Assembly: GCA_903916675.1 (NCBI GenBank)
Contig: CAIWXQ010000041.1
Location: 1 to 64,000, forward strand
Source: an uncultured bacterium
Lineage (GTDB): Bacteria; Verrucomicrobiota; Kiritimatiellia; RFP12; CAIWXQ01
DNA length: 64,000 bases
Direction: 5' to 3'
Part shown: piece after piece, positions 1 to 64,000 of the stretch
How positions within the stretch are numbered: the stretch's first letter is position 1
Layout of the letters: every line of letters begins with the position of its first letter
Position numbers and translations under genes: made by a program
Notes under the pieces: model-generated
Database searches by the model: none
What the model saw: only the letters and a program-made list of their open reading frames with translations
What the model was told of the DNA's origin: nothing

Positions 1-440
1 CCAATGGGTGGCAATGCACGCAAGGCGGCATGCCGCCGGAATATTTACGGGCTCATCAAGGGCAAGGACATCCTGACCGTCCACGAACGCGGCATCAGCG
101 AGATCGATTCGAACGTGTTGGAAGTGTGCCTCATCGCTACGAAAAGCCCGTCGCTCCTGACCGAAAGACAAAAGAGCATGATCTGGGCCGTGTGGCAACA
201 ACTGGCAGAGGCGAACAAACTGCGCGGCATTCGCAACCCGGCGAAATCTGATCCCAAAGGATAAGGGGCACCCGCGGCGCGCATTTCGCTTCCGCAAATC
301 CGCAGGACCGTCTCAATTCCACGACTCATCACCCCCAGAAACCATCTTCCTTCCCAACGCAGAAGGGGCCCCGCGTGGCGCGGATCGGCGTTCCCGGCGC
401 GGGGGAAGGCGGCAGAGTGGTCCAGCCGCAAGGCTTTGAT

Positions 441-471
441 GGGGGCGGCTGGATACGTATCCGCCGCCCCC
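441..471. terminator. Strong GC-rich hairpin downstream of the Y-family polymerase gene (possible terminator)
   Basis: GGGGGCGG-CT-GGATACGTATCC-G-CCGCCCCC: 8-bp outer stem around a perfect 12-nt palindrome; lies 3' of the minus-strand CDS ending at 575; no clear T-tract. Confidence 0.4.
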
Positions 472-574
472 GGAAAAACGCCGCGGATGGGCCACTATCA
501 CGCCTGATCTCCGCGCCCCGATCCGCGCCGCGCACGCGCGTCAGCCACCCCCCGATTCGCCGCACTGCCCACGC

Positions 575-56938: not shown

Positions 56939-57117
56939 GCGTCCCGCGCCGCGCCCAGCATCTCGATTCTCTGCACGATAGCCCTTATGAGCGCATTGCG
57001 CGCCCCAAATGCCCTTTACGTCACAACACCTGCGTCCTACAATCCCGACATTCCAGCCGGGTTTGATCGGACCATTCAGCCTCTCACCCCGCTGGAAACG
57101 GGTTGGATGGCGACGCA
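56939..57117 (+). repeat. Dispersed intergenic repeat, copy 1
   Basis: Shares four ordered blocks (28, 21, 30, 24 nt) with copy 2; the 21-nt block GCGCCCCAAATGCCCTTTACG is identical. Confidence 0.85.
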
Positions 57118-57144
57118 TAACCAATAAGTTAGTCCGGAAAACAG

Positions 57145-57837
57145 ATGAAAATAGCGCCTTCTTCTTGTCTGCTCTCGGTTGTGGCCGCAATTTGCCTCGC
57201 GGCTGGATGCGCGACACAACATGGCGGAAACACAAGAACATATGTGGCACATGCCATGATGATCGAGGGGCCAACCTCGGAATTTGAACGTATCGGGTGG
57301 AATGATGTGACAAATAATATGAAACCGAGTTTTACAGCGGCTATATCTGACTCTGTCTTCCAGTCGCTCAAGTTAAAGGTTGTGCATTTTCCTCTGCTGG
57401 CGCTCAGGCTTGGCCAGACAACAGATGCGAGCAACCAGCAGATCGTTCGATATGCGACATCCCTTGACACAAACGGCATGCCGGGTGTCTTCAAAGAACA
57501 AGGAGTGGGGCAGAAGATGCAAATTCGTCTCGTCGAGGCAACGGGCGCACGCGTCAGCGTGGACGCATGGCTCGAAAATGTGCGAGAACCGAAATGGCAA
57601 AACGTCACGGAAGGGATGAACGGCGCATCTGAATGTAAGATCCCATTCTTTGCTTCAAGGAGCTGGTTTTCCAAAATGGAATTCGCAGTCGATAGTTGGT
57701 GTGTCGTGGGCGGCAGAACAGACGACGCGAACATGACAGTTTTTGCCATCAAGATTAGCTACGACAATAACACCCAACCAAGCCGGGCACCACTACCTCG
57801 CACTCCGCAAACAGGGTGCTCAGAGGTTGCGCGCTGA
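57145..57837 (+). CDS. Hypothetical lipoprotein
   Basis: Signal peptide with lipobox LAAGC; uninterrupted ORF. Confidence 0.6.
   Translation: MKIAPSSCLLSVVAAICLAAGCATQHGGNTRTYVAHAMMIEGPTSEFERIGWNDVTNNMKPSFTAAISDSVFQSLKLKVVHFPLLALRLGQTTDASNQQIVRYATSLDTNGMPGVFKEQGVGQKMQIRLVEATGARVSVDAWLENVREPKWQNVTEGMNGASECKIPFFASRSWFSKMEFAVDSWCVVGGRTDDANMTVFAIKISYDNNTQPSRAPLPRTPQTGCSEVAR
57772..57832. repeat. attC-like nested inverted repeat
   Basis: ACCCAAC-caagcc-GGGCACC-(23 nt)-GGTGCTC-agag-GTTGCGC; 61 bp, outer and inner boxes pair. Confidence 0.45.
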
Positions 57838-57865
57838 CGCTGGGGCTGTCGTCACCATCCAGTCT

Positions 57866-58075
57866 TCACTTCCGCTTCCTCATCTTCGCCAAGCCAATCT
57901 CCAGATCGCTGTGGACCGCTGCTTTGATGATGCGGTAATCGCCGGGCGCGTTGTCCACGCCCTTGAGCGCCGGCTGGGAATAATCATTGACATAGAGACA
58001 GCGCAGCGGGCCCGCTTTTGAGGCGACCACGCTGTGTTCGTCCGCATATTCCGCCAACCGTTGTACTGGATTCAT
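57866..58075 (-). CDS. Hypothetical small protein
   Basis: 69-aa ORF MNPVQRLAEYADEHSVVASKAGPLRCLYVNDYSQPALKG..., in an otherwise empty interval. Confidence 0.4.
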   Translation of the reverse strand: MNPVQRLAEYADEHSVVASKAGPLRCLYVNDYSQPALKGVDNAPGDYRIIKAAVHSDLEIGLAKMRKRK

Positions 58076-58242
58076 TTTGGTTCTCTCTGTTTCCCGTCAG
58101 TGGGGGGCATTATCCGATATTTTCCATTTGACCCGTTATCCTCGACCCTCGTGGGCTGTTCGTATTCGGCAGTAAGACATTTCCAGTTGTCGGACAACGC
58201 CGCAGGTCAAACGCGTGGCCAGGCATCGCCTGCACATGCCTA

Positions 58243-59275
58243 TCAAGAAGGGCGGTATTCAGAAAATGCCTCGTACATGGCGATGACGTTGTCCAGCGGG
58301 GTCTCTGGCATCACGATGTGGCTTGAGCCGCCGATATAGCCACCGTTGAACTTCCCGAACAGGGCGACACAGTTCATGTACCTCGCGCTTCACATCCTCC
58401 GGTGTGCCTCTTACCAGGGTTCCCTGTACGTCCACGCCGCCGTTGAAGCACACCTTGCCACCGAACTCCCGCGACAGCTGTCGCACGTCCATGGCCTGTG
58501 GTTGCACCGGGTTCAGGACGTTGAGCCCCATGTCGATCAGGTCGGGAAGAATCGTCGTGATATTCCCGCACAGATGCATCCAGACATGTGCGCCCCCGGA
58601 ACGCACACGTTCGAACATGCGCTGGTAGGAGGGCTTGTAGAAACGCCGCCAGTCGTCGGGGTTGATGAGCAGACTGCGCTGACACCCCCAGTCGTCGGAG
58701 AAAAACACGGCATCGACTCCGCGTTTGACCAACTGGTCGATGATCGCGAGATTGTATTCGACCACGCGGTCCCGCAGGCGGACGAAGTTTTCTTCATCCG
58801 TGTAGGGGTCCATCAGCATGTTGTCGAAGCCGCGGAGCATCCAGAGGCGTTCAAAGAGCGTAAACCAGACGACCGACTGTACGTACCGGTCGCCGCGCTC
58901 CCGCAGCCGTTCATCGGCCACGTCGAACCGGCCGGCGCGGTTGGGGTCAGGGAAGGCATATCCGTCCATCGCCTCATAGCCGCCCGCGAGCGGATGCGAC
59001 TCGGTCTTGTTTCCGTGCCCGTCATTCTCCCAGCCGGTGCCCCACTGGTCCTGCCAGCGATGCACGCCATCCCGGGTCCCGTGGTCCACTCGGAAATCCG
59101 TTGGCGCGACCCACTCCAGCATGTCGCTGGTGAAGCGCTCGGACAGCGCGCGGATGTGTTCGCGCTTGCGCTCGTCCTTGTCGTACAACGTGTCGAGATG
59201 CAGCCCGATTGCGCAGGGCAGATAGGCGGGTTTCTTGAACGCGATGGCCCGCTTGTAGTTTTCTTTTCCCGTCAT
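58243..59275 (-). pseudogene. URO-D (uroporphyrinogen decarboxylase-like) family gene with apparent frameshift near the 3' end
   Basis: Frame 1 through ...TPEDVKREVHELCR; expected C-terminus LFGKFNGGYIGGSSHIVMPETPLDNVIAMYEAFSEYRPS* continues in another frame from ~58362. Confidence 0.75.
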
Positions 59276-59295
59276 GCGGATCTTCTCCTCCTGAT

Positions 59296-59338
59296 GCCGA
59301 ACGCTCCGGCCAGCCGCAACAGCAGCCGGTGGTCAGGC
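59296..59338 (-). repeat. attC-like nested inverted repeat
   Basis: Minus strand GCCTGAC-CA-CCGGC...GCCGG-AGC-GTTCGGC; between two genes. Confidence 0.35.
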
Positions 59339-59710
59339 CTTCCCTATAAATGGTGTTCCCTGATGGAATCGAAGTTGCCATCCGGAACGGGTGCGCGTCC
59401 AGATGGAACTTCTTCGGGCGTATTCCGTCACGCCATGATAGGTGACGGCACTATTGTACGTGACCTGTGCCACATCCGGGGTTAGCAGTCGCACGTTGAG
59501 ATTTGGGAGCGGCAACACAGCAGCGATCGGTTGCGGTTTGGCGTCAAGCGTGTCTTCCCGTTGATAGGAGCGTCCGGACCGTCCGAACTCGAAAAAGTCA
59601 TCGGCAAAGACCTCGTTCATTCGGTGTCGGTCGAACCGTGTTTCTTCACGCCAGAGTCCCTCTTCCAGTCGCTGAAGAAGCTCACGATCTTCTTTGCTTG
59701 GGGTTGTCAT
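59333..59710 (-). CDS. DUF4440/NTF2-like family protein
   Basis: MTTPSKEDRELLQRLEEGLWREETRFDRHRMNEVFADDFFEFGRSG...VTYNSAVTYHG...WTRTRSGWQLRFHQGTP. Confidence 0.75.
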   Translation of the reverse strand: MTTPSKEDRELLQRLEEGLWREETRFDRHRMNEVFADDFFEFGRSGRSYQREDTLDAKPQPIAAVLPLPNLNVRLLTPDVAQVTYNSAVTYHGVTEYARRSSIWTRTRSGWQLRFHQGTPFIGKA

Positions 59711-59749
59711 GATGTTGCTTTCCTCACGTTCGTTTGGCCTGGCGTCAGC

Positions 59750-59798
59750 GCGCAACCGACGTTGCGCCAGCGGCTGCTGGTGCCGCGCAATGTTAGGC
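59750..59798. repeat. attC-like nested inverted repeat overlapping the GNAT stop codon
   Basis: Minus strand GCCTAAC-A-TTGCGC...GCGCAA-CGTCG-GTTGCGC; GNAT stop TAA lies inside GCCTAAC. Confidence 0.45.
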
Positions 59799-60356
59799 GG
59801 TAAGTTGCGACACGCGTTTTGCGAGTATCACGCTCCGGTAATTGGTGTCCTTCCATTGCGCGTATTCAATGAAGCGAAAGCCCTTCGCCCGGTACATGGC
59901 GATCAGTTCGGTTGCACGTTCGGACGTGTCGAGCGCAAGTTCGCGCAACCCTTTTTCCGATGCTCGTGCTTCGACCAGTCCCAGCAGCCGCGTACCGATG
60001 CCCAGGCCTTGGTGGCTGGTCCGCACCGCAAATTGGCCGAAGGATGCGACGTCCGGGAGATCGTAAAAAGGCGTGCCACAAGTCGCGGCCGCCTCTGCAA
60101 GGGTTACAATGCCCACAATACGATCGCCATCGAGCGTGACGATGGTTTCACCTCTCGAGACGCGTCTTTGCGTTGCGGACTTGTCCTGATGAGAGGCGAA
60201 GAAGCGCATGCCAGCTTCTGCGAGCGGGGCGTAGGCTTCATGGAGCATCGCGGTTATTGCTTCCAAATCGTCGCCGGGTGAGAGATAACGATAAAGGATT
60301 TGCCTGCCGGTGCGATCTGGACTCTGTAGACCGTTCCGCAGATCTTGTTCGAGCAT
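59793..60356 (-). CDS. GNAT family N-acetyltransferase
   Basis: FGQFAVRTSHQGLGIGTRLLGLVEARASEKGLRELALDTSERATELIAMYRAKGFRF. Confidence 0.87.
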   Translation of the reverse strand: MLEQDLRNGLQSPDRTGRQILYRYLSPGDDLEAITAMLHEAYAPLAEAGMRFFASHQDKSATQRRVSRGETIVTLDGDRIVGIVTLAEAAATCGTPFYDLPDVASFGQFAVRTSHQGLGIGTRLLGLVEARASEKGLRELALDTSERATELIAMYRAKGFRFIEYAQWKDTNYRSVILAKRVSQLTA

Positions 60357-60384
60357 AGGGTGCTGGTCTTTTTTGCACACAACG

Positions 60385-60744
60385 TCAGCGCGCACTTTCC
60401 GGGTTCCCCGCCTGCGGGGTAGAAGGTGGCGGTGCCGCGTTTCGCTCGGCTTGTTTCTCAATTGCTCGCTGCATTGTGCTTCGTGCTTCCGCGCGCCTTC
60501 CGAAAACTAGGACGAAGACGAGCACACCCAGACAGCCAACGATAAGTAATGTGACTTTCCCCGTCTTCTGTTTCCGCCCGATGATTCCGAACAACAACGC
60601 CAGCAGGATGGCGACAACTCCAAACCCCGTGGCGATCACCTCTTTCGCAAACATGGCGATGAGGAAAGGCACAAGCAAGCCCGCCACCAGTAGGGCGAGC
60701 GCGAGATTGCCGAAGAGTTTGTCGCTTGTTTTTGGGCCTTCCAT
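60385..60744 (-). CDS. Small hypothetical membrane protein
   Basis: About three hydrophobic segments LALALLVAGLLVPFLIAMF, VIATGFGVVAILLALLFGI, VTLLIVGCLGVLVFVLVF. Confidence 0.6.
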   Translation of the reverse strand: MEGPKTSDKLFGNLALALLVAGLLVPFLIAMFAKEVIATGFGVVAILLALLFGIIGRKQKTGKVTLLIVGCLGVLVFVLVFGRRAEARSTMQRAIEKQAERNAAPPPSTPQAGNPESAR

Positions 60745-60763
60745 TTTCACTCCTCTTTTTGCC

Positions 60764-60826
60764 GCCCAACGCCACGGCTGTGGATTCATCGCACTAGCGG
60801 CGGAACCCGTGAGCCTCCGGTTGCGC
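60764..60826. repeat. attC-like nested inverted repeat
   Basis: Plus strand GCCCAAC-GC-CACGG...CCGTG-AGCCTCCG-GTTGCGC; 63 bp, outer boxes pair 6/7. Confidence 0.45.
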
Positions 60827-60886
60827 ATACAGCGTCAGCGCCTCGGTCAGCTTGCCGAATTCCGGCAGGGTCGGATAGCCCTTCAT
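60794..60886 (-). pseudogene. Truncated ORF remnant overlapping the PfkB-family gene by ATGA
   Basis: MKGYPTLPEFGKLTEALTLYAQPEAHGFRR*; starts in the ATGA at the end of the upstream gene, stops inside an attC-like repeat. Confidence 0.45.
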
Positions 60887-61776
60887 GCCTTCGCCTCCTG
60901 TGCGGTTAGGACTTCTTGCAGGAGCGGGATCGATTCCGCTGCGCCGGGACGGGTCACGCAGATGGCTGCTGCGCGACAACCGAGCCGCAGCGCCTGGGCA
61001 GGGTCGTTGCTTCGCATGAGTTCCGCCAGAAAGAAACCGATGAACGTATCGCCGGCAGCCGTGGTGTCAACCGGCGTCACAACAAACCCGGGTTGGCGCA
61101 GCATGCGGGCGGAATCGAAAAACACTGCGCCATCCTTTCCCATTGTCAGCACAGTCGCGGACCGCGGGAACTTGGCAATCATGGTTGTTCGGACACCTGC
61201 CGGCGTCGTGTGTCCCGTCAACCCCTCGGCCTCCGTCTCATTCAGGATGAAAAGGTCGACATCCTGCAACGGGTAGTCTTGCACGACGGGCGACATGGGC
61301 GCGGGGTTGAACACAACCCTTAACCCGTGTCGTTTCCCGCTCCGGATGGCTTCAGCCGTCGAGCTGGTCTCGTTCTGGAGCAGCAGACAATCCCCTTTTG
61401 AACAAGCCGATACCGCCTGCGTGACCAACTCGGCGCTGACAGCCAGATTCGCCCCGCCGTGAAGCACGATCGCATTTTCCCCGGAGGGCACGACTTGAAT
61501 GACGGCATGCCCCGTGGCCAGATCGGTCGTCTTGAGATGCGAGACATCGATGCCCTCGCGCGTCAAACGCTCCAGCAGCCAGGCGGCATCGCGCCCGACC
61601 ATGCCCGCATGCCGGGTCACCGCGCCGGCGCGGGCCAGTGCAATCGACTGGTTGAAGCCCTTGCCGCCGGCGAACACTGCATATCTCGCGCTCGCCAGCG
61701 TCTCGCCTGGGCGCACAAAGTGATCGACCGCATAGACATGGTCGATGTTGACTGATCCAATGTTCAATATGCGCAT
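60883..61776 (-). CDS. PfkB family carbohydrate kinase (ribokinase-like)
   Basis: SVNIDHVYAVDHFVRPGETLASARYAVFAGGKGFNQSIALARAGA; FVVTPVDTTAAGDTFIGFFLAELM. Confidence 0.92.
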   Translation of the reverse strand: MRILNIGSVNIDHVYAVDHFVRPGETLASARYAVFAGGKGFNQSIALARAGAVTRHAGMVGRDAAWLLERLTREGIDVSHLKTTDLATGHAVIQVVPSGENAIVLHGGANLAVSAELVTQAVSACSKGDCLLLQNETSSTAEAIRSGKRHGLRVVFNPAPMSPVVQDYPLQDVDLFILNETEAEGLTGHTTPAGVRTTMIAKFPRSATVLTMGKDGAVFFDSARMLRQPGFVVTPVDTTAAGDTFIGFFLAELMRSNDPAQALRLGCRAAAICVTRPGAAESIPLLQEVLTAQEAKA

Positions 61777-61864
61777 CGGTTGGAACGATAGAACTTCGCG
61801 CAGTATGCGTCAATCCGGGATGCAACAGCCTTGAATCCCACCCGACGAGGCGCCCGCAGTGTAG

Positions 61865-61885
61865 CGGCGGCTGTGTCAGCCGCCG
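61865..61885. repeat. Perfect GC hairpin CGGCGGCTG-TGT-CAGCCGCCG
   Basis: 9-bp perfect stem, 3-nt loop, upstream of dispersed repeat copy 2. Confidence 0.75.
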
Positions 61886-61947
61886 TCCCGCTCACAAACC
61901 CACGGTGGGGCCGACTCTCTGTTGCCGTCCGCAAAGGTGGGCTAGCC

Positions 61948-62145
61948 GCATCCCGCGCCGAGCCCAACATCTCGAACCCCCCGCGCAATATCGCGCACCA
62001 GGTGGCAGTCCTTGCACGACCGCAGTGCGCCCCAAATGCCCTTTACGGCATATCGCCCGCGTCCTACAATCGCGACATCCCTGCCGGGGAAGGCGCAGAC
62101 CATTCGGCCGCTCATTCAGCCGGAAACGGGTTGGATAGTGACGCA
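61948..62145 (+). repeat. Dispersed intergenic repeat, copy 2
   Basis: Same ordered blocks as copy 1 at 56939-57117; ends 16 nt before the next ATG. Confidence 0.85.
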
Positions 62146-62161
62146 AAGAGGATGAGAATTC

Positions 62162-62584
62162 ATGGACGTTGAAATCAGCTCCGACCAGGACAAACTCAGG
62201 ATCTCAGATGTTCATGAGATGCTCGCAATAGCTTTCTGGTCACCAGGGATCACCGAGACGGAAATTTGCAAAGGAATTCGGAATTCTGCGCTTGTTGTGG
62301 GTGCGTACTTGGCGGATAAACGACAAGTAGGCTTTCTCCGGGTGGTGTCCGACAAGGTGCGATTTGCCTATCTTTTGGATGTGATCGTGGCGGACGCATT
62401 CAGACGTAAGGGCATCGGCCAGAAAATGGTTCAATTCGCAATGTCGCATGTGGAATTGAAGGACATATATCAGTGGTTGTTGGTCACAAAAGACGCTCAT
62501 GGCGTCTATGCAAAGTGTGGGTTTCAAAAACTGCAGACCCCGGAACGGTGGATGTCGATCATGAAGCCACGTCCGGAACGATGA
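62162..62584 (+). CDS. GNAT family N-acetyltransferase
   Basis: LLDVIVADAFRRKGIGQKMVQFAMSHVELKDIYQWLLVTKDAHGVYAKCGFQKL. Confidence 0.88.
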   Translation: MDVEISSDQDKLRISDVHEMLAIAFWSPGITETEICKGIRNSALVVGAYLADKRQVGFLRVVSDKVRFAYLLDVIVADAFRRKGIGQKMVQFAMSHVELKDIYQWLLVTKDAHGVYAKCGFQKLQTPERWMSIMKPRPER

Positions 62585-62658
62585 ATGTTGAAGGCTAACC
62601 ACCGGCTGCCGCTGCGGCAGAGTCGGAGCCTTGGAGCTCAGAACGGAAGGAAGCGAAC

Positions 62659-63447
62659 GTGATGAATTTCACTGATGAAGCATTGCAGAAGTACAAACAA
62701 GACCGCTTTCCCCGCTCGGCGCGCTACGATCCGGCCTGGGTCCACCAGAATGAGATGGGGCCAAACGTGCTGTGGCTGACAGAGGCCTTGACGCAAGTGA
62801 TGGAGATCAAGGCGGGCATGCGCGTGCTCGACCTGGGGTGTGGCACGGCCATGAGCTCGATATTCCTCGCCAGGGAGTTTGGCGCGCAAGTCTGGGCAAC
62901 GGACCTCTGGATCAGCGCCACGGACAACCTGAAGCGCATTCGCGATGCCGGGCTGGAGGATCGTGTCTTCCCCATCCATGCGGAAGCACATGCGTTGCCC
63001 TTTGCCGAAGAGTTCTTTGACGCCATCGTCAGTCTGGACAGCTACCATTACTTTGGGACCGATGTTCACTATCTGGAATCCTGCCTGCTGAAACTGCTGA
63101 AGCCAAGGTGCCAGATCGGCATCGTGTCGCCGGCTTCGCCGGAGAGAATTCCCGCCCCGCCGCCCACTTGCCTTGGCAAGGGCTGGTATTGGATGAACAC
63201 TGTCGATTGGTGGCGCGATCTGTGGTCGCGCACACCGGGACTCGACCTGGAACATGCGGAATTGCTGCCCCACGGCTGGGATATGTGGATGCAATGGCAC
63301 GAATTCCTCGAGGCTTCAGGTCCACGGAATCGACCGGGTGGAGTGAAGGAATTCGACCAACTGCGTGCCGACAACGCTCGCTATCTTGGGTTCGTGCGCA
63401 TGGTCGGCAACAGGTGTTCCAACCAGCCGGGCGAGCCGACGGCTTGA
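62659..63447 (+). CDS. Class I SAM-dependent methyltransferase
   Basis: GMRVLDLGCGTAMSSIFLAREFGAQVWATDLW; LPFAEEFFDAIVSLDSYHYF. Confidence 0.9.
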   Translation: MMNFTDEALQKYKQDRFPRSARYDPAWVHQNEMGPNVLWLTEALTQVMEIKAGMRVLDLGCGTAMSSIFLAREFGAQVWATDLWISATDNLKRIRDAGLEDRVFPIHAEAHALPFAEEFFDAIVSLDSYHYFGTDVHYLESCLLKLLKPRCQIGIVSPASPERIPAPPPTCLGKGWYWMNTVDWWRDLWSRTPGLDLEHAELLPHGWDMWMQWHEFLEASGPRNRPGGVKEFDQLRADNARYLGFVRMVGNRCSNQPGEPTA

Positions 63448-63489
63448 TCGCCGCGCCGCACGGATGCCATGCGATGAATCGGCGAAACT

Positions 63490-63993
63490 ATGACCATCCA
63501 CAAAGAAACCAATGCCGACATTACAGGGATTCGCTCCGTTGAGCAGGCCGCCTTTGGGCGGTCAACCGAGGCGAGACTTGTCGATGCATTACGCGAGAAG
63601 GGGAAGCTGGTCATCTCCCTTGTCGCTGAAGAGGGCGGCAAGGTAGTTGGGCACATCGCTTTCTCCGCGATCAGCACAGAACCGGCCGCGGAAGAATGGC
63701 GCATTCTGGGCTTGGCCCCTCTTGCCGTTGCACCCGATAAACAGAAGCAAGGGATTGGATCGGCACTTGTCAAAGATGGACTGGAACTGGCAGGACGCCT
63801 TGGCTACACGCATGCCGTTCTTCTGGGCGGCGCTTACTACCACCGGTTTGGCTTTGTCCCGGCCCAACGATATGGAATCAGAAGTGCATATGATGCGGGT
63901 GATCATTTCATGATCGTGGCTTTAACGGGAACGGCAATGCCGGTCAATGTCATGATGAAGTATGCACCGGAGTTTGCAGAGGCTGCCTGTTAG
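63490..63993 (+). CDS. GNAT family N-acetyltransferase (YhbS-like)
   Basis: LGLAPLAVAPDKQKQGIGSALVKDGLELAGRLGYTHAVLLGGAYYHRFGF. Confidence 0.9.
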   Translation: MTIHKETNADITGIRSVEQAAFGRSTEARLVDALREKGKLVISLVAEEGGKVVGHIAFSAISTEPAAEEWRILGLAPLAVAPDKQKQGIGSALVKDGLELAGRLGYTHAVLLGGAYYHRFGFVPAQRYGIRSAYDAGDHFMIVALTGTAMPVNVMMKYAPEFAEAAC

Positions 63994-64000
63994 AAGATCA

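Follow-up and report, generated by a model that had tools for sequence, protein, structure and literature searches.

The window analysed here, a 64,000-nucleotide stretch of contig C41 from an uncultured member of the Kiritimatiellia (host genome G000, 2.48 Mb, 87% complete), most probably carries real integron gene cassettes, worn down in part, and the host genome has two IntI genes. We put this reading at a probability of roughly 0.85, and with it the description of the region as a probable CALIN, decaying amid native genes, that consists of two linked minus-strand cassettes and a single plus-strand cassette (Table 1). The observations behind it are attC homology with a covarying fold, co-orientation of attC sites and ORFs, IntI genes with adjoining attC elsewhere in the genome, and a cargo whose composition is foreign. 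A first-pass annotation made from the sequence had proposed an integron-like cassette array. The core of this idea is upheld by attC models and IntI, whereas its site list stands only in part, the five sites being reduced to one strong and one weak.

Table 1. Features of the region and leader copies elsewhere in the genome (window positions, unless a contig is named; models as described in the text).
Feature	Position	Strand	Description
Leader copy 1	57012-57133	+	R3 102.5 bits (training copy); self-repeat found without a model
Putative left edge, plus-strand cassette	57128-57134	+	GTTAGTC, crossover G|TT; predicted from sequence
Cassette ORF, 230 aa	57145-57837	+	No Pfam match; GC3 0.54; stop TGA within attC a, at L'/spacer
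attC a	57771-57845	+	R'' ACCCAAC (57772-57778), L'' about AGCCGGGCACC, L' GGTTGCGCGCT, spacer GAC, R' GCTGGGG (57839-57845, degenerate)
URO-D-like gene, no cassette	58259-59275	-	PF01208, 3.2e-20; GC3 0.755, native
DUF4440 ORF	59333-59713	-	Foreign composition, GC3 0.56
attC c, eroded attC candidate	59737-59799	-	R'' GCCTAAC, L' GGTTGCGCGCT, R' GCCAGGC (59737-59743)
GNAT acetyltransferase, cassette cargo	59793-60359	-	PF00583, 2.4e-11; GC3 0.61; between attC b and c
attC b	60377-60451	-	R'' GCCGAGC (degenerate), L'' AACGCGGCACC, L' AGTGCGCGCT, spacer GAC, R' GTTGTGT (60377-60383)
Cassette ORF, about 120 aa	60385-60745	-	No Pfam match; small-membrane-protein look; stop TGA inside attC b
Putative left edge, minus-strand cassette run	60764-60770	-	GTTGGGC, G|TT at 60770/60769; placed by its position before the ORF start
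PfkB-family kinase, no cassette	60883-61776	-	PF00294, 2.7e-47; GC3 0.725, native
Leader copy 2	62039-62156	+	R3 101.3 bits (training copy); self-repeat; without terminal TAACCAATAAGTT
GNAT ORF after leader copy 2	62162-62584	+	Foreign composition, GC3 0.57
Leader, strong copy	C16:39375-39496		Before an attC-ended ORF
Leader, strong copy	C21:61630-61746	-	Before an attC-ended ORF
Leader, weaker copy	C31:96726-96820	-	Independent of the model; before a membrane-protein-like gene without attC

A strict RYYYAAC/GTTRRRY scan found no site in the window, in agreement with the deviating R boxes already conceded by the annotation. Off-consensus are R' of attC a and c, and both R'' and R' of attC b, and for this reason we describe the sites as eroded attC. 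A looser rule (boxes with at most one mismatch, nested perfect stem of at least 5) found 3 sites in the 7-kb region, or 6 counting both strands, whereas 60 dinucleotide shuffles averaged 0.20 and never gave more than 4. The pattern thus exceeds chance, but as no site has the strict consensus, boxes alone could not decide. Single-strand folding of sites a, b and c was mostly no better than that of shuffles, so the attC case rests on homology and covariation and not on folding energy. An Rfam search returned two tRNAs only.

When 115 genomes were searched with the DNA of positions 57000-64000, short matches to 60378-60459 and 57776-57846 were found at unrelated loci; the other matches were to the PfkB and URO-D genes and to copies within the host genome. 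The aligned repeat reads GYCSAAC-AA-AGCGCGGCACC-hairpin-GGTGCGCGCT-GAC-GTTGGGC, with R''-L''-L'-R' order and an extrahelical G. Two covariance models were used, R1 from eight repeats in other genomes of the order, none from the window, and the broader R2 from 16 sites, all outside the window. The arms of the R2 alignment covary, with 92.3% of cells paired (at most 37.4% in slid controls) and a covariation score of 0.275 (0.070 in shuffles), the structure having been drawn on the same sequences as were scored.

R1 ranked attC b first in the window (49.9 bits, E 8.6e-10, match 60377-60452(-)) and attC a second (41.2 bits, E 1.2e-7, match 57770-57845(+)), followed by attC c (16.6 bits, E 0.13 over 83.5 kb, match 59737-59800(-)), just above the best non-attC match at 14.9 bits. 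The R2 scores were 44.1 bits (E 2.7e-8) for attC b, 43.7 bits for attC a, and 13.1 bits for attC c, the level of the best unrelated match. Under these models attC a and b show the R''-L''-L'-R' layout, their arms paired and one base extrahelical, and judged by sequence they are bona fide attC sites, while 59737-59799(-) is probably an eroded attC.

The strings named in the first-pass annotation are present at their positions, and the site that it placed at 57772-57832 corresponds to attC a. A second, 59750-59798(-), is retained in R1 as the probable attC c, with the GNAT stop codon TAA inside R'' GCCTAAC, but is at background level in R2. In both, GTTGCGC (57826 on the plus strand; within 59750-59798 on the minus strand) had been taken for R'. 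This box is L', because the cross-genome repeat runs R''-AA-L''-hairpin-L'-GAC-R'; the true R' boxes are GCTGGGG and GCCAGGC. The best site, attC b, was missing from the list. Its remaining members are not supported: scores in 60700-60900 are at most 7.3 bits, so that the 63-bp palindrome at 60764-60826 is no attC by model (its GTTGGGC, 60764-60770, is best read as marking where a cassette has its left edge), and the same ceiling of 7.3 bits applies to the CTRACCACCGGCTGC junctions at 59296-59338 and 62593-62637. These junctions were also considered as a second attC class and rejected, the pattern being no commoner in relatives than a reversed control. The reported shared 15-mer GTTGCGCGCTGACGC is real; its only other genomic copy, C31:88492, was discarded as an attC copy, since it lies within an apparent panC gene, in coding sequence, and seems to be a chance match.

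A single array from 57.7 to 62.6 kb, with at least five attC and every gene between them a cassette, is accordingly very improbable. The strings exist and exceed shuffles under the loose rule, but three of the sites have the low scores just given, relatives show the junction motif no more often than background, and the PfkB, URO-D and methyltransferase genes look native. We find instead one plus-strand cassette and a minus-strand run of two or three, among native-looking genes.

Cassette ORFs can stop inside attC. At attC a, b and c alike, the ORF terminates within the site and lies on the same strand as its attC; the mixed gene orientation, which the annotation had counted as a weakness, is therefore none for the supported sites. 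In class A attC, the upstream ORF mostly enters in a single frame that stops at the TGA of the attC, and for this reason a C-terminal tail such as EQSAAPLPSAPQTGPSEGAR is common to unrelated proteins (G024, G029, G064, G005; window 57771 and 60377).

The cassette-type ORFs have a GC3 of 0.54-0.64, compared with 0.73-0.76 for the URO-D, PfkB and methyltransferase genes and 0.745 (sd 0.083) for background ORFs, a gap that is noisy for short ORFs (about 1.3 to 2.5 standard deviations). PfkB and URO-D had rightly been called atypical as cassettes, their composition being native; the methyltransferase had been listed as cargo, and its composition is native-looking too. The DUF4440 ORF is a possible third cassette of the minus-strand run. 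No attC was recognisable after it (59296-59339 scores only 4.5 bits), nor after the GNAT ORF at 62162-62584. The distance from attC b to the weak attC c is ~0.6 kb, attC a lies on the opposite strand, and the window contig has no IntI. Among the neighbouring genes, the URO-D ORF has an apparent frameshift near its C-terminus (around 58380), which could reflect a pseudogene or an assembly error. A short ORF, MKGYPTLPEFGKLTEALTLYAQPEAHGFRR, at 60794-60883(-), overlaps the PfkB stop (ATGA) and ends just before the cassette left edge; a search with it gave no match, and it is perhaps a truncated gene.

As the annotation had noted, no integrase is in view, the window being free of IntI matches. Two IntI genes above the TIGR02249 curated cut-off are found elsewhere in the genome, at C31:8777-9712 (379 bits) and C40:4060-4992 (359 bits). 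The closest solved structure to the C40 protein is IntI4 (2a3v), with an alignment over the whole core that includes a stretch which we take to be the IntI-specific insert. The 5' end of the C31 gene looks altered, as the ORF is without the start of the C40 N-terminal extension. Both genes have attC sites upstream and divergent (C40:1411, 1909 and 2942; C31:6822 and 8232), which is the canonical integron layout, and on C40 the sequence that separates intI from the first cassette contains TTGACG-N17-TATCGT, then GACG|GTTAGGC, candidates for a Pc promoter and attI. About ten solitary attC lie elsewhere, on C18 (three), C1 (two, one weak), C11, C21, C16 (two weak) and C44. Some of the sites beside intI belong to the R2 training set; those at C40:1411 and 1909 and at C31:6822 and 8232 do not. 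The closest IntI relatives are from Lentisphaerae/Kiritimatiellota MAGs and Pontiella.

Of 59 relatives covered by both the R1 and the IntI search, five of the eight with an IntI match (E <= 1e-40) and none of the 51 others have R1 sites, and in a same-genus genome (G001) attC-model matches lie upstream of the IntI match. The repeat is palindromic and dispersed with many solitary copies, as a non-integron element (REP-like repeat, terminator, small transposon) with a resemblance to attC might be. We give this explanation very little credence, because the copies sit at ORF 3' ends in fixed orientation, follow the R''-L''-L'-R' layout, in which L'' has an unpaired base, cluster beside intI and, in the relatives tested for both, are carried only by IntI-bearing genomes. 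For the first-pass annotation, a lack of attC-model hits or of recurrent sites would have spoken against cassettes. These objections, as far as testable, fail, because attC models match the region (at attC a and b), the sites recur between other genes in the host genome and in relatives, and the search for IntI in the genome was positive (C31, C40).

We suggest that the cassettes were most probably integrated among host genes by IntI acting in trans. This enzyme recognises the folded attC strand via the R and L boxes and the extrahelical base, with crossover at G|TT. GTT is present in every one of the five R' boxes near IntI and missing from about half of those at scattered sites; the first tally was 5/5 versus 5/12 (p about 0.04, uncorrected and post hoc), and one extra scattered site with GTT was added after this count. 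The degenerate R' boxes (GCT, GCC) may stem from mutation after integration, or from insertion at a non-attI chromosomal site whose own sequence became the right half of R'; insertion and decay would both produce them, and the data do not separate the two. DNA searches of relatives (115 genomes, query 57000-64000) found no syntenic relative for an empty-site comparison, and tblastn with the cassette proteins gave no match in the fetched relatives' loci, where the PfkB neighbours were uninformative. Excision by a trans-acting IntI would be possible in principle, two being encoded in the genome.

Rather than by insertion in trans, the region could have arisen as the broken remnant of a complete integron whose intI was deleted here. 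Loss of intI apparently does occur in the host genome, since a piece resembling the start of the C40 intI region (C18:53304-54319) precedes a single cassette, a PhzF-like ORF ending in attC; from its sequence, this locus looks like an integron with intI lost. Such an origin is rather unlikely for the window, where IntI matches are absent, native-looking genes lie between the cassettes and the cassettes occupy both strands.

Further resemblances to the C40 region were seen. C44:8915-11904 has an 86% copy of the intI-to-first-cassette stretch, then a tyrosine recombinase and an apparent IS91-type transposase, and next an ORF carrying a good attC; below the TIGR02249 cut-off and beside this transposase, the recombinase was rejected as a third IntI. 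In the window, a 52-bp stretch upstream of PfkB (61781-61832) shares 81% identity with the promoter region that precedes the C40 cassettes (TTGACG-N17-TATCGT). A separate dispersed repeat, about 215 bp long and with 76-86% identity, occurs at window 334-546, at C41:64389-64609, and on C12, C1 and C21.

Some cassettes follow a leader of ~120 bp, which comprises a promoter-like pair (TTTACG-17-TACAAT) followed by some 85 nt up to G|TTRGGS. Copy 1 has TTTACG-N17-TACAAT at 57015-57043 (promoter scan: 1 found versus 0.0 expected) and about 85 nt ending in G|TTAGTC, directly before ORF 57145. A model (R3) was built from the four strong copies, three of which (57145, C16, C21) are directly followed by an attC-ended ORF; the fourth precedes the GNAT ORF 62162. 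The leader had only two marginal matches in 37 relatives, and was found neither in the same-genus genome nor near IntI genes of other genomes. Derivation from the C40 pre-cassette region was also considered and rejected, local alignments being no better than shuffles. The leader may be a promoter, an attI-like target or an inherited flank. It seems quite improbable that its dispersed copies act like attI, as places where IntI working in trans docks cassettes for expression, which would give the chromosome several one-cassette expression slots rather than one long array.

The window resembles a CALIN in having attC-bounded ORFs without nearby intI, with IntI elsewhere in the genome; it differs in having only two linked attC (b and c, one weak) plus a solitary attC on the opposite strand, eroded R' boxes, and native-looking genes in between. 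The C40 and C31 loci, with IntI over the TIGR02249 cut-off and attC upstream and divergent, are like a sedentary chromosomal integron of the Vibrio cholerae type, but their arrays are very short (three and two attC seen, C40 being near the contig end), the host genome has many single cassettes, and the window has no intI. In attG insertion, as citing papers (PMC11023631, PMC12444791, PMC12901181) describe the work of Loot et al. (2024, Nat Microbiol 9:228), a right junction that deviates from R' would fit, and the host cassettes do lie at scattered non-attI places; a ~120-bp leader common to three scattered cassettes would, on that description, be unexpected for arbitrary attG targets.

Integrons have already been reported from Verrucomicrobiota (PMC8618304), and a published scheme of attC taxonomy (PMC8352920) does not name Kiritimatiellota/Lentisphaerae. 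Together, the above observations document integrons and scattered cassettes in a lineage apparently near Kiritimatiellota/Lentisphaerae, as placed by IntI relatives (intI being transferable). The scattered cassettes are a gene-capture system of known type, in a little-studied group. The attC consensus of the clade (about GNCGAACNAAGCGNNGCACC...GGTGNNCGCTGACGTTGGGC) can be used for finding cassettes in this group and, if the leader is a recipient site, cassette insertion and expression would take place outside the integron.
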